Of a DNA stretch of 64,000 bases, positions 22,097 through 38,595 are shown in pieces. A program made the translations under genes and the position numbers. The DNA is taken from contig NC_007759.1 of assembly GCF_000013405.1 (NCBI RefSeq), positions 1,179,001-1,243,000 of the forward strand, read 5' to 3'. Position 1 is the first letter of the stretch; each line of letters begins with the position of its first letter. The DNA comes from Syntrophus aciditrophicus SB (GTDB taxonomy: Bacteria > Desulfobacterota > Syntrophia > Syntrophales > Syntrophaceae). The notes beneath the pieces are model-generated. The model made no database searches, had not been told where the DNA came from, and saw only the letters and a list, made by a program, of their open reading frames with translations.

Positions 22097-22316
22097 GTTG
22101 AATCTCCCCAAAAAGTTAGCGGGATATTTACCTCCTTATCTATATTTTGGCAAGTGAAAGGGTGCAAAGCAGATCTCTTTATCCCTCATTATCCCTTTGA
22201 CACGCCTTGAAACCTGTGGCAGTAACATACCCTGCTTGGTTTTCCTCAGGGCAGCGGCTGCCTTTTCACCGTATGAACGGAAGGGAAAACGGAATGAACG
22301 ATTGAAGAGAGGCTCT

Positions 22317-23426
22317 ATGCTGATTGGAGTTCCGAAAGAAATCAAGGATCATGAATACCGCGTTGCCTTGACGCCGGGAAGTGTCGGGACGCTTGTCCGG
22401 GCGGGTCACAAAATTCTTGTGCAGTCTGGAGCAGGGGAAGGCAGTGGATTTCCCGATGATGAGTATCGTTCATCGGGAGCCATTCTTTTTCCGGAAGCCG
22501 CCGACATATGGGAAGGGGCCGGGATGGTCATGAAAGTGAAGGAGCCTCAGCCATCAGAGTATATCTATCTGAGGAATGATCTGATCCTTTTTACTTACCT
22601 CCATCTGGCCGCTGAACCGGACCTGACCCGTGTGCTTCTGGATTCCGGAACGGCTGCCATCGGTTACGAGACAGTTCAGTTGGATAATGGAACGCTGCCC
22701 CTGCTCATGCCCATGTCGGAAGTTGCCGGCCGGATGTCTGCTCAGATTGTTGCTCACTATCTGGAGAAAGAAAACGGGGGGCGTGGAAAGCTTCTCGGTG
22801 GGGTGCCCGGCGTTCGTCCTGCGGATGTGGTGATCCTCGGTGGAGGAATTGTCGGGAGCAACGCGGCCAAAATCGCGTTGGGAATGGGTGCACATGTAAC
22901 CATCATCGACACCAGTTCGGACCGCCTCCGGTATCTGGATGAGGTGCTTCACGGCAATCTGACGACTCTCGGTTCCAATGTGCAGAATATCGCTGATTCC
23001 GTCAATCGCGCCGACGGACTGGTTGGAAGCGTTCTCATCCCAGGGGCTAAGACTCCGAAACTCGTCAGCCGGGAAATGGTGGCCGCGATGAAGCCGGGAA
23101 GCGTCATTGTGGATGTTGCCATCGATCAGGGAGGCTGCGTGGAAACGGCCAGACCGACAAAGCACAGCGATCCCGTTTATATTGTGGATGAGGTGATCCA
23201 CTATTGTGTGACCAACATGCCCGGCGCCGTCCCGCGAACATCTACCTATGCACTGAACAATGCGACTCTTCCTTATGCGTTGAAAATTGCAGGATCAGGT
23301 CTGATGGATGCTCTTAAAGCAGATATCTCCCTTGTCCGGGGCGTCAATACGCTGGGAGGCCGTCTGGCCAGCCGTCCTGTCGCAGAGGCTCATGGTCTGG
23401 AGTATATCCCCCTTTTCAGGCGGTGA
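22317..23426 (+). CDS. ald: Alanine dehydrogenase
   Basis: 369 residues. Interconverts L-alanine and pyruvate plus ammonia with NAD(H). The N-terminal segment MLIGVPKEIKDHEYRVALTP is diagnostic. Catalytic Lys and His lie in VMKVKEPQPSEY (about 70-80) and FTYLHLAAEPDL (about 92-103). The NAD-binding Rossmann part is VVILGGGIVGSNAAKIALG (about 168-186). The start at 22317 (GAAGAGAGGCTCT upstream) matches the family; the open frame continues 120 bases upstream without support. In an anaerobe it could handle alanine as nitrogen store or redox sink. Transcribed alone, convergent with 23481. Confidence 0.95.
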   Translation: MLIGVPKEIKDHEYRVALTPGSVGTLVRAGHKILVQSGAGEGSGFPDDEYRSSGAILFPEAADIWEGAGMVMKVKEPQPSEYIYLRNDLILFTYLHLAAEPDLTRVLLDSGTAAIGYETVQLDNGTLPLLMPMSEVAGRMSAQIVAHYLEKENGGRGKLLGGVPGVRPADVVILGGGIVGSNAAKIALGMGAHVTIIDTSSDRLRYLDEVLHGNLTTLGSNVQNIADSVNRADGLVGSVLIPGAKTPKLVSREMVAAMKPGSVIVDVAIDQGGCVETARPTKHSDPVYIVDEVIHYCVTNMPGAVPRTSTYALNNATLPYALKIAGSGLMDALKADISLVRGVNTLGGRLASRPVAEAHGLEYIPLFRR

Positions 23427-23480: not shown

Positions 23481-24137
23481 TTAAGTGACGATTAAAGAAT
23501 TTTTCAATTTATTTTCCGTCATGACCAATTCTTCCATTGAAGACTTGGATTCTTTTGACGCGATCGTAATATCATTCAGCGCTTTTTCAATATCAGAAAG
23601 CGTATTCTGCATGGCCTCAACGACAACTTCGAATGCTTTTCCCGTCTCTCCGGCTCGGGCAGCCTCAATACGGGCATTCATGGTCACGATGCGCATGGAT
23701 CGCAGAACAGATTCAATATTGTGAATCGAAATATCAATATATTCGCCTGAAGACTGAAGCGATGATGTCAGCCGGTTGAATTCAAAAGTTAGATTTTCCA
23801 GGATTTCCATACGTTGTGTGTTTTGAATCTCTATAAAATCACACATGATTTTTGCGGCAATGGAGGACATGAAATGCTGATGCGGTTTAAGATTGTCAAA
23901 AATCTTTTTTACGACGCCTTCATTACCTGTTAATTCAATGATAATATCCGCATCCTTCTGACTGATCATGGCAACGGCATCGTTAGTCGTGGGAATTTTC
24001 AGCTCTTTTGCTTTCAGAATTCCCGGTGCGTTTTCATTAATATCGGCTATGCCGATAATATGAATATAGTCGATATTAAGAAAATACTGCATAAGAGTTA
24101 AAGAAGCATTACCTCCGCCTACGAAAATAACATTCAT
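23481..24137 (-). CDS. Rossmann-domain / MCP-signalling-tip hybrid protein
   Basis: 218 residues, soluble. Residues 1-105 or so form a nucleotide-binding Rossmann domain (MNVIFVGGGNASLTLMQYFL; the Gly-rich loop resembles homoserine/aspartate dehydrogenase N-termini, and ADIIIELTGNEGV fits). Residues about 110-218 are coiled coil and carry a recognisable chemoreceptor tip, MRIVTMNARIEAARAGETGK. There is no membrane helix or HAMP. AGGAAAAC before the ATG at 24137 sets the start. It may couple a nucleotide-bound metabolic state to the chemotaxis array as a cytoplasmic receptor. It is the last gene of the minus-strand chemosensory run; function is inferred. Confidence 0.7.
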   Translation of the reverse strand: MNVIFVGGGNASLTLMQYFLNIDYIHIIGIADINENAPGILKAKELKIPTTNDAVAMISQKDADIIIELTGNEGVVKKIFDNLKPHQHFMSSIAAKIMCDFIEIQNTQRMEILENLTFEFNRLTSSLQSSGEYIDISIHNIESVLRSMRIVTMNARIEAARAGETGKAFEVVVEAMQNTLSDIEKALNDITIASKESKSSMEELVMTENKLKNSLIVT

Positions 24138-24304
24138 GTTTTCCTCCATCATCGGTGTATATGTTTCAAGTGGCGATCAGAGAAGGTATCAGGGCGGCAC
24201 GGCAGAGGCTTCGCCTTCATATAAAAGACTTACATTGAGGAGCCAATAACGAATCCGACGAAGAGCACGGACTTTTTCCGGCCCTGAGAACTGTTATTTT
24301 TTAA

Positions 24305-25708
24305 TCAGCCTAAAACCGATATAAGCTCATTGATGTGGTGCTGGATTTCTATAGCTTTCTGATTAAGTATTTTGGAAGCGTCGGCTGATTCTTCGGCATG
24401 AGCTGCCGCTTCCTGGGTCGCCTTGTCCATTGCCGCGACAGCATGATTAATCTGAGCTATTCCCTGTGCCTGTTCTTCAGAGGCGGTTGTGATTTCATCG
24501 ACAATCTGTGCAATTTGAACGGAAATCTCAACATTGTCCTGAAAAGCTTCCTGTGTTGCTTTTGTTAATTCGTTGCCGTTGCTTACGGCCTGCATGGTAT
24601 TGGCAATCAGCTTACTGGTATTTTTTGCGGCATCGGCGGACCGTGTGGCCAGATTTCTCACCTCTTCGGCAACAACGGCAAACCCTGCACCTGCTTCACC
24701 GGCACGAGCCGCTTCAACTGCCGCATTAAGAGCCAGAAGGTTCGTCTGAAATGCAATTTCATCAATTGTTTTGATGATTTTTCCCGTCTCCTCGCTGGAT
24801 TTGTTGATTTCATTGATTGCTTGGGTCATTTCATCCATATGAGAGTTCACTTTTTCGACTATTCTCTGTGTTTTTCCCATCATAGCTCTGGCCTGTTTCG
24901 CATGATCCGAATTGTTCCGGGTCATTGACGACATTTCTTCCAGGGACGAGGAGGTTTCTTCCAGGGACGAAGCCTGGGCTGCAGTTCCATCCGCGACGTT
25001 CTGACTTGAAGAAGAAACCAGGCCGGAGGCGGTTGCAACCTCTTCGACGAAGGAATGCAGTTCTTGAGCGATTCGATTAACCGGTCGAGTCACGGATATG
25101 CTTAATAGAATCGCAATGGCAATGCCTATGGCGACCATAATCAGGGTAAAGAAAAAAAGAGTCGTGTTGAAGGCGGTCATTTTATTTTCTACATAATGTT
25201 TCTGAACACCTACAAACCACATGCCGATCGTCTTTCCATTTTTGTCTTTAATGGGAGAATATTTTGTCTCACACACCTTACCGACGACCACAGCCTTACC
25301 TATAAAATCAGTGCCTTTTTTAAGCACCTTTTCTTCCACTTCAGAAGCGACCTTTGTGCCTACCGCTCTTTTCCCGTCGGGTTTTAAAACGTTTGTTGCG
25401 ATGCGAATATCTCCCAGAAAGATGGTTGCGGCTGAACCGGTTCTTTCCTTGATCATGTCAACAAGCCTGGTATCGCCATTGATTAATTGCTTTCCTTTAT
25501 ATAGCTTTCCCTCTGCAACGTTCCAGTCTCCCGGATAAAACTGATCAAGAAGCTCATAACCCAAGGCATGGTCAGAGGCCAGCTTTTCGTCCATCATAAG
25601 ACTGGTCACCTGAGTATTTACGAAACAATAGACGGCGATTCCGAATGCAATGAGCAAAGAAACGAATGTCAAAATCAGCTTGTGCTTCATCGTCAAATTC
25701 ATACTCAT
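24305..25708 (-). CDS. Methyl-accepting chemotaxis protein (single-Cache type)
   Basis: 467 residues. Helix 1 (about 9-31), a periplasmic sensor of roughly 150 residues with a single-Cache look ([18 protein letters not shown], then [19 protein letters not shown]), helix 2 (about 188-210), then HAMP-like and signalling coiled coil. The conserved tip is [20 protein letters not shown]. It would sense a small ligand outside and control CheA through CheW inside. No C-terminal CheR-tethering pentapeptide is seen. The start has AAGGAGGAAGAG upstream, with a second Met (residue 3) possible. Confidence 0.9.
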
Positions 25709-26339: not shown

Positions 26340-26849
26340 TTACTGCACCAGTGAGGCCATTTCATCCGCACTCATAACACGATCGATATCCAGCAAAATC
26401 TTAACGCCGCCACCCACCTTGGCCATGCCGAGAATATAGTCCGTATCCAGACGATTGCCGAAACTCGGGGTTTCTTCAATATCGGCGGATTTGATGTTCA
26501 GCACTTCTGAGACGGAGTCTACGACAATTCCCATGGGAATCGTTTTGACCGAGCCCGCAATTTCCACAACAATAATACAGGTTCTTTCAGTATACTCCAT
26601 GGGATCCATGCCGAACTTTCGGCGCAAATCGACTACTGGAATAACTTTCCCTCGGAGATTGATAACGCCTTTGACATAGGGAGGCGTTTGAGGAACGGTT
26701 GTAATCGGCATCATGCCTATTATTTCTTTGACTTTCAGAATACTGATGCCGTATTCCTCGCCGGCCAGAGTAAAGGTCAGATACTTGCCATCACGGTCAG
26801 ACATCGTGTTGACATCTTGTGTCATTGTTTCTTCGATTGCTGCGGGCAC
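26340..26849 (-). CDS. cheW: Chemotaxis coupling protein CheW
   Basis: 169 residues, one CheW domain (about 22-160): YLTFTLAGEEYGISILKVKE, then PPYVKGVINLRGKVIPVVDL, the classic receptor/CheA-binding core. It bridges chemoreceptors and CheA. Translation probably starts at a GTG at 26849 (AAGGAGGAAATCATCT upstream). It stands apart from the main che cluster, beside two receptors, and may serve them or the shared array. The CheA at 36388 has its own C-terminal CheW-like domain. Confidence 0.93.
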   Translation of the reverse strand: MPAAIEETMTQDVNTMSDRDGKYLTFTLAGEEYGISILKVKEIIGMMPITTVPQTPPYVKGVINLRGKVIPVVDLRRKFGMDPMEYTERTCIIVVEIAGSVKTIPMGIVVDSVSEVLNIKSADIEETPSFGNRLDTDYILGMAKVGGGVKILLDIDRVMSADEMASLVQ

Positions 26850-36387: not shown

Positions 36388-38595
36388 ATGAATTATGAAA
36401 CCCTGTTGAAGTCAATTGATTGCATGGCGTCAGATTTTCTCTTTCTTGACAGCGGAGATATGGATGTGCCGACGACAGGAAAATTTCTCAACCATCTGGA
36501 AAATGTCGCAAGAGAGGCATTGAACTTAAATATCATGCCCATTCAGGAAGTAGGAAGGGGATTGAATTCGATTCTTGAATGCATCATCCTGGATTCAATA
36601 GAAGACAAAGAAGCGGCGATTCTGACCTTCGAACAGGGGATCGCACTGTTGCAGGAGATCGTGAACGTAGAGAAAAACCAGGGAAAGTATCAAGGGGATA
36701 TTCGTGGTTATCTGGAGCGAATTGCTTTTGTTACAGGGACTTCCATATCCTCATCCGATAAGGAAATAGTTGACGAGGTTCAAGCCTCGAAGGAGAAAAT
36801 AACGGCTGCGGGTGCTTCCGAAGAGTTTCTGATTCAGGACGAATCCCTGTTGCGGGATTTCATTGCGGAAGGGATGGAGTACGTTGAAGAGATTGAAGTC
36901 AATATCTTAAATCTGGAAAACAATCCGGAAAACAGGGACTATATCAACGCAATTTTTCGTCCTTTTCATTCCATCAAGGGGGTTGCCAGCTTTCTGAATC
37001 TGGAGAAGATCAGAGAACTTTCCCACAATATCGAGAGTCTTCTCGATAAAGCCAGAAACGGAGAACACAGCGTCACGCCGCCATTGATCGATGTTGTACT
37101 GGATGGCGCCGACGCTCTTAAAAGCATGATATCCCGGCTGAAAGAAGCGCTTGAAGGAAAAAAAGAAAATCCTCTCGACGTCGATCTGTCTGCCCTTGAA
37201 ATGCGAATACATAATATCAACAAGGGCATTGAGCAGGAACCTTCCGTAAAAAAACTGGGGGAAATTCTGATAGATGACGGAGTGCTCTCTGAGCAGATGC
37301 TGGAAGAAGGTTTAAAGGCGAAAGAAAATAATCCGGAAAAGAGGCTGGGAGAAACACTGATTAAAGAAAGAGCTGTGACACCGAAGCAGGTTTCTCAGGC
37401 TCTCAGAAAACAGGCCGAGCAGATTACGGATATGTCCACAATAAGAGTGGATACACGAAAGCTCGATGATCTCATCGATATGGTCGGAGAGCTTGTGATT
37501 ACTCAATCCATGGTGCAGCAGAATATCAGCAATCAGGAAAACGGGAACAAGGATCTGGCAAGGAATGTTTCACAACTGTTCCGTATTACGTCAAACTTAC
37601 AGAAGGTATCTACCAGTCTTCGAATGATCCCGATTAAACAGACTTTTCAGCGAATGGCGCGACTTGCCAGAGATGTTTCCAAAAATGTCGGGAAAGCTGT
37701 TGTCGTTGAAATGGAGGGAGAAGACACGGAGCTGGATCGAAATATGGTCGATGAAATTTATAATCCCCTGGTTCATATGATTCGTAATTCCGTTGATCAT
37801 GGGCTGGAAACACCTGAGGAGCGAGTGAGATGCGGGAAGCCGGAAAAAGGGCTGATTCAGTTGAAGGCCTATCATCGTGGCGGAAACTTCGTGATTGAAA
37901 TATCCGATGATGGCCGAGGCTTAAACAGGGAGAAAATTTTGAAAAAGGCCATTCAAAACCATCTCGTCAACAGTGTTGAAGGCCTGACGGACCAGGAAAT
38001 TTATCGTATGATTTTCCTGCCTGGTTTTTCCACCGCTGAAAAAGTGACTGATGTTTCGGGGCGCGGTGTCGGCATGGATGTGGTGAGGCAGACCATTGAA
38101 AAACTGCGGGGCAAGATTGAAATTGAAAGCATCCCGGGAAAAGGCACGACCTTCATTACTCGCTTTCCGTTAACAATGGCCATTATTGACGGAATGATCG
38201 TCAAAGTAGGCAAGGAGCGGTTTATTCTGCCTACTACGGCAATACGTCAGGTTCTCAGGCCGACTCGGGAATCGCATAACCATATTGTGGGACAGGGAGA
38301 AACGGTAAATGTGATGGGGCGGCTTATGCCCCTGGTTCGAGTTTATGATCTCTTCGATATTGAGCCGGAAAAGGTGGATCCCTGGGATGCCATTGTGATT
38401 GTTGTCGATGGGGCCAGCCGTTCCAAATGTCTGCTTGTGGATCAGATCATCGGCAAAGCGGAAGTTGTGATTAAAAGCCTGGGTGAAGGATTAAAGGATA
38501 TAGATGGAATATCGGGCGGCGCCATCATGGGCGATGGTCAGATCGGTCTGATTATTGATCCGGAAGGGTTGTTTGAACTTAGTGAACACTGTTGA
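36388..38595 (+). CDS. cheA: Chemotaxis histidine kinase CheA
   Basis: 735 residues. Order: N-terminal helical part without a phospho-His (1-120), HPt domain (about 140-260) with His194 in RPFHSIKGVASFL, a linker (about 285-345) made of two repeats resembling the MshEN/type II secretion ATPase N-domain (KLGEILIDDGVLSEQMLEEG and RLGETLIKERAVTPKQVSQA), dimerisation helices (about 350-430), HATPase (MIRNSVDHGLETPEER and ISDDGRGLN) and a C-terminal CheW-like domain (about 600-735). No P2 (CheY-binding) domain is recognisable. It phosphorylates CheY and CheB proteins in response to receptors. Confidence 0.94.
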   Translation: MNYETLLKSIDCMASDFLFLDSGDMDVPTTGKFLNHLENVAREALNLNIMPIQEVGRGLNSILECIILDSIEDKEAAILTFEQGIALLQEIVNVEKNQGKYQGDIRGYLERIAFVTGTSISSSDKEIVDEVQASKEKITAAGASEEFLIQDESLLRDFIAEGMEYVEEIEVNILNLENNPENRDYINAIFRPFHSIKGVASFLNLEKIRELSHNIESLLDKARNGEHSVTPPLIDVVLDGADALKSMISRLKEALEGKKENPLDVDLSALEMRIHNINKGIEQEPSVKKLGEILIDDGVLSEQMLEEGLKAKENNPEKRLGETLIKERAVTPKQVSQALRKQAEQITDMSTIRVDTRKLDDLIDMVGELVITQSMVQQNISNQENGNKDLARNVSQLFRITSNLQKVSTSLRMIPIKQTFQRMARLARDVSKNVGKAVVVEMEGEDTELDRNMVDEIYNPLVHMIRNSVDHGLETPEERVRCGKPEKGLIQLKAYHRGGNFVIEISDDGRGLNREKILKKAIQNHLVNSVEGLTDQEIYRMIFLPGFSTAEKVTDVSGRGVGMDVVRQTIEKLRGKIEIESIPGKGTTFITRFPLTMAIIDGMIVKVGKERFILPTTAIRQVLRPTRESHNHIVGQGETVNVMGRLMPLVRVYDLFDIEPEKVDPWDAIVIVVDGASRSKCLLVDQIIGKAEVVIKSLGEGLKDIDGISGGAIMGDGQIGLIIDPEGLFELSEHC

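Follow-up and report, generated by a model that had tools for sequence, protein, structure and literature searches.

A Rossmann domain fused to a minimal chemoreceptor tip: a candidate soluble receptor for NAD(H) redox state in Syntrophus aciditrophicus

A gene of Syntrophus aciditrophicus SB was found to encode a short soluble protein in which a Rossmann domain is joined to the tip of a chemoreceptor. The gene lies in a stretch of 64,000 nucleotides of contig NC_007759.1, which was analysed as a whole and is termed the window below. Such a chimera had been proposed in the first-pass annotation of this DNA, and it was borne out by the Pfam and PDB matches of the tip and by the family profile of the Rossmann domain. 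We give about an even chance to the reading of the protein as a minimal soluble chemoreceptor which reads the NAD(H)/redox state and steers the single CheA of the host; the ligand, the coupling, the insertion into arrays and the motility output are what we infer in this reading. A sensor linking metabolism to swimming is considered probable because proteins built in this way are also found in distantly related bacteria.

The open reading frame extends over 23481-24152 on the minus strand, and 223 aa are counted from its first ATG. The third in-frame ATG, at 24137, is preceded by a Shine-Dalgarno-like GGAGG (24143..24147, minus strand; the minus-strand sequence around the start is ATGATGGAGGAAAACATGAATGTT), and the Met encoded there pairs in the alignment with the first Met (residue 1) of the Acetoanaerobium homologue. 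On account of both, the start is likely to be at 24137, as the first-pass annotation had placed the end of the gene, which gives a gene of 218 aa at 23481..24137 (minus strand). Residue numbers used here (G12, G14, D37, A48, T75, G76, 132-207 and G168) are counted from 24152. Neither a terminator nor an excess of promoters was found around the gene. The alanine dehydrogenase gene (22197-23426, plus strand), which encodes an NAD enzyme, is convergent with the fusion gene, with 55 bases between the two ends, and this closeness is probably coincidental.

The C-terminal part of the protein is a short antiparallel coiled-coil hairpin with about 55 residues per leg (23484..23819, minus strand), as judged by the MCPsignal match and the leg lengths, with the turn near G168 and the receptor tip NARIEAARAGETGKAF at 23631..23678 (minus strand). 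Both the VGGGNAS loop and the tip NARIEAARAGETGK quoted in the first-pass annotation are present as given. Residues 132-207 matched Pfam MCPsignal (PF00015) with E=1.1e-6 and 29.1 bits, under the gathering cut-off of 34.6, and solved receptor tips were matched as well (PDB chemoreceptor 4jpb, E=2.9e-7); at the core of the tip, N, E, R, G and F have all been retained. By these scores the match of the query tip to chemoreceptors is well above chance. The same-layout homologues that were scanned gave MCPsignal scores of 57.7-71.3 bits, over the cut-off. A truncated ordinary MCP was ruled out, the homologues being equally short. The cytoplasmic location and the lack of HAMP, membrane helices and a methylation region, all of which had been read from the sequence before, were upheld by hydropathy (no membrane helix in the query, its maximum over 19 residues being 1.2 as compared with 3.0 for the MCP next to it), by the domain scan (no HAMP in the query) and by the motif search, in which the methylation site [AST]xx[EQ][EQ]xx[AST] had no match in the query protein.

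The N-terminal part (23823..24137, minus strand) was identified as an NAD-type Rossmann sensory domain by family alignment and profile, residues 6-110 alone giving weak matches to Pfam Rossmann models. It contains the glycine-rich loop VGGGNAS (24102..24122), the aspartate of beta2 (24042..24044), which is the expected ribose-binding carboxylate, and a Leu-Thr-Gly motif after beta4 (23925..23933), all on the minus strand. Across 45 aligned domains, G12 was conserved in 45/45, G14 (the second Gly of GxG) in 96%, Asp37 in 93% (Glu in the remaining 7%), A48 in 100%, and T75 and G76 in 96% each. The query retains G12, G14, D37, T75 and G76; at the third loop position it carries Ser (GGGNAS), and most relatives carry Cys or Gly. 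Conservation of the nucleotide loop, a lack of which had been named in the first-pass annotation as evidence against its reading, thus holds among the homologues of the Rossmann domain and is weaker in some fusions of magnetococci-like genomes (see below). In Rossmann enzymes that use NAD, FAD and SAM, the ribose is classically bound by a carboxylate located at the beta2 tip (PMC4777477). The conserved Gly loop, beta2-Asp and Thr-Gly support the binding of an NAD-type nucleotide, and NAD(H) is the most likely ligand in view of the beta2-Asp; NAD is preferred over FAD and SAM since the Rossmann relatives are NAD enzymes. An amino-acid-related metabolite, which had been considered as an alternative ligand, gained no specific support.

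When the family profile was compared with solved structures, the acylating acetaldehyde dehydrogenases 7z3s (2.8e-7) and 1nvm (1e-6) were nearest, and Gfo/Idh/MocA enzymes and, weakly, the redox sensor Rex (5zz5, E=0.001) were matched as well. The earlier description of the segment as homoserine-dehydrogenase-like fits loosely: NAD_binding_3 is matched by 6/19 family members, and GFO_IDH_MocA or DapB_N by more of them. The catalytic domain of a dehydrogenase is absent: the Rossmann fold of about 105 aa is followed by the coil, and the NCBIfam scores were 20-23 bits vs cut-offs of 166-282. A model made by AlphaFold2 from the single query sequence had a mean pLDDT of 38.6 and was not used.

A search of Desulfobacterota genomes gave matches in 112/395, many covering the N-terminal half only. 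The outputs of the proteins carrying the Rossmann domain were HisKA/HATPase, HisKA_3, PAS, GAF and GGDEF, with one LuxR-type helix-turn-helix, and some carriers were short stand-alone proteins. Because its relatives sit on histidine kinases and on GGDEF, PAS and GAF proteins, the domain is taken as a sensory input module, and it appears to be a common one on the histidine kinases and diguanylate cyclases of Desulfobacterota; neither Pfam nor NCBIfam contains a family-specific model for it. Example loci are L104, L105, L037, L068, L071, L043 and L126, and two tandem copies of the domain were seen in three kinases (L043, L047 and L049). In the host genome, the family profile found no other strong member and two weak hits.

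A family search for the same fusion, as suggested in the first-pass annotation, found the layout in other phyla. Full-length proteins of 214-260 aa with this layout were present in Acetoanaerobium (Bacillota), in one other Desulfobacterota genome and in Pseudomonadota. The protein of Acetoanaerobium noterae (260 aa), one genome being the whole of the Bacillota evidence, showed 30% identity over 222 columns (tblastn, E=3e-23), and a protein of 228 aa was found by the phylum search in the Desulfobacterota genome G201. A profile spanning both halves was built from three members, namely the query and the Acetoanaerobium and G201 fusions. Among 395 Desulfobacterota it found only the host and G201, both profile members, and the other ten members of the order of G201 had no full-length fusion; among Pseudomonadota it matched 33/299 genomes over about model positions 3-228, and these carriers are presumably magnetotactic cocci. 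The scan of genome contigs with the query returned only one tip fragment, and the scans of viral contigs returned receptor tips only, or nothing.

Two observations were made beside these searches. The PLSDB record L072 (NZ_CP154629.1), labelled as plasmid pTPELB2, is 2.63 Mb long with tyrosyl-tRNA synthetase, CheA and many MCPs, and looks like a chromosome mislabelled as a plasmid. The IMG/VR viral contigs L093 (2542-3420) and L096 (1596-2468) each encode a protein of about 290 aa that resembles a soluble receptor. In both the N-terminus is a coiled coil, and the C-terminal halves of the two are almost identical (MCPsignal E=2.3e-36 for L093); these may be chemoreceptors carried by phages or prophages.

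The distribution within the genus bears on whether the fusion could be in decay, or newly acquired, and of little function to the host species, a reading which we regard as improbable. It would account for the absence of the fusion from 3/3 same-genus genomes, for the GC content of the gene (39% vs 47% in the window) and for the MCPsignal score under the cut-off. It agrees poorly with an intact frame behind a good ribosome-binding site, with the retention of the loop, the Asp, LTG and the five core residues of the tip, and with a layout found across phyla.

Selection on the two halves was compared in 20 of the 33 magnetococci-like proteins. Identity between the proteins came to 92% in the tip coil and 45% in the Rossmann half, and third-base agreement at same-residue codons was 53% and 52%, respectively. 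Since synonymous sites are equally diverged (saturated) in both halves, strong protein-level selection on the coil is indicated, and by this codon comparison the tip of the magnetococci-like proteins is under very strong selection; recent transfer or gene conversion as the source of the tip identity was ruled out, since the third positions have diverged to the same extent in both halves. The tip of these proteins reads INAGIQASRAGEFGKGFAVVAGEV, with Gln where most receptors carry Glu. In L161 (6177-6824) and the homologues L149-L168, QASRAG replaces EAARAG, the tip is nearly invariant and the Rossmann half diverges. Some magnetococci-like fusions are without the loop Gly or the Thr-Gly residues of the Rossmann domain, so the sensor may have changed its ligand there; taken together with the loop Ser of the query, these losses suggest that the ligand may differ between members of the fusion.

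A nearly frozen tip beside a drifting Rossmann pocket is also what would be expected of an array modulator, whose tip enters CheA/CheW arrays and dilutes or inhibits them, and whose Rossmann domain mainly dimerises or binds a protein or another small molecule. The lack of an adaptation region speaks for this reading too, as does the copy number, the fusion being single in 4/4 magnetococci-like genomes checked, beside 24-34 other MCP matches. We hold it to be rather unlikely, though the strongest of the alternatives considered: the site residues are strongly conserved family-wide, also in proteins that can use the domain as an input only (histidine kinases and diguanylate cyclases), and the query itself retains GxG, the beta2-Asp and LTG.

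In the tree of the Rossmann domains, the query was placed with a kinase-type branch and the other fusions across a supported branch (97/93). The best tree needs two changes, and a single origin was not rejected (p-AU 0.246). The query tip showed 33-39% identity to ordinary long receptors, about the same as to the other fusions. It is plausible from these comparisons that the fusion arose more than once, independently.

The gene surroundings in the host were counted for the chemoreceptor. The fusion gene lies 167 bases downstream of the gene for a transmembrane chemoreceptor with an sCache_3_3 domain match (24305..25708, minus strand), a possible array partner, and near a che cluster and CheW (26340..26849, minus strand), the expected coupling partner, whose translation was read and whose name is that of the first-pass annotation. 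The only CheA found by the genome search is encoded at 36388..38595 (plus strand), and the host genome, a single contig of 3,179,300 bases, contains four MCPs besides the fusion and two flagellin genes. Counted against the receptor were the MCPsignal score of the query, its loop Ser, the site residues lost from some magnetococci-like fusions, the absence from the three same-genus genomes, and the neighbourhoods of the homologues: the genes around the G201 fusion were not che genes, and the neighbourhood was not conserved among magnetococci-like genomes. These neighbourhoods would suit a hairpin whose partner is something besides the CheA of chemotaxis, in a protein working outside motility. 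We consider this the least probable of the readings, given a coil that matches solved chemoreceptor tips, a gene in the window that adjoins an MCP near CheW and che genes, and CheA in 10/10 fusion-bearing genomes or records checked. As most motile relatives have CheA too, this co-occurrence is a matter of consistency and not of proof.

In the preferred reading, as a receptor of redox state, the Rossmann domain would bind a dinucleotide that contains ribose, NAD(H) being the likeliest, and its conformation would shift with the ligand or the redox state. The shift would pass straight into the short helical hairpin, which keeps only the tip contacting CheA/CheW. The protein would enter the CheA-CheW baseplate in dimeric form, the dimers probably being grouped into trimers, and would alter the activity of the single CheA, and flagellar switching would be biased by the metabolic state. 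It would have no adaptation of its own by CheR/CheB methylation because the methylation region is absent. Somewhat short of an even chance, the proteins may form a previously undescribed class of adaptation-free soluble chemoreceptors which read the cytoplasmic NAD(H) redox state by a stand-alone Rossmann domain, and by which syntrophs, clostridia and magnetotactic cocci would steer by redox balance.

The usual explanation of energy taxis invokes FAD-PAS or haem sensors which read electron flow, and a receptor reading the NAD pool directly would, if true, connect metabolism to motility by another route. Such a receptor would plausibly serve a syntroph, whose way of life is close to thermodynamic limits, as well as magnetotactic cocci holding their position in redox gradients. 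The minimal tip, which has hardly changed in one lineage, would also offer a compact natural system for testing what is required of a receptor in the control of CheA. Searches covering part of the literature returned no account of a chemoreceptor with a Rossmann or NAD-binding domain.

Soluble chemoreceptors are already known: soluble MCPs (PF00015) such as HemAT of B. subtilis likewise consist of a cytoplasmic sensor and a hairpin with a CheA/CheW-contacting tip, whereas the legs of the fusion are about 55 residues long, without methylation region or HAMP, and its sensor is a Rossmann domain instead of a globin, PAS or GAF. The NAD domain of the acylating acetaldehyde dehydrogenases is its nearest solved relative in sequence; in the fusion the catalytic domain is missing, and the strand and helix after the fold run into the signalling coil. 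Rex, in which a Rossmann domain senses NADH/NAD+ and switches an output, belongs to a different family and carries a winged-helix DNA-binding output in contrast to the receptor tip. The sensory domain of the Desulfobacterota kinases and cyclases is the same as that of the fusion, with the conserved motifs VGGGxxC/G, VADxNxxAPG and ELTG, and is followed there by HisKA/HATPase, GGDEF or PAS and in the fusion by the chemoreceptor tip.
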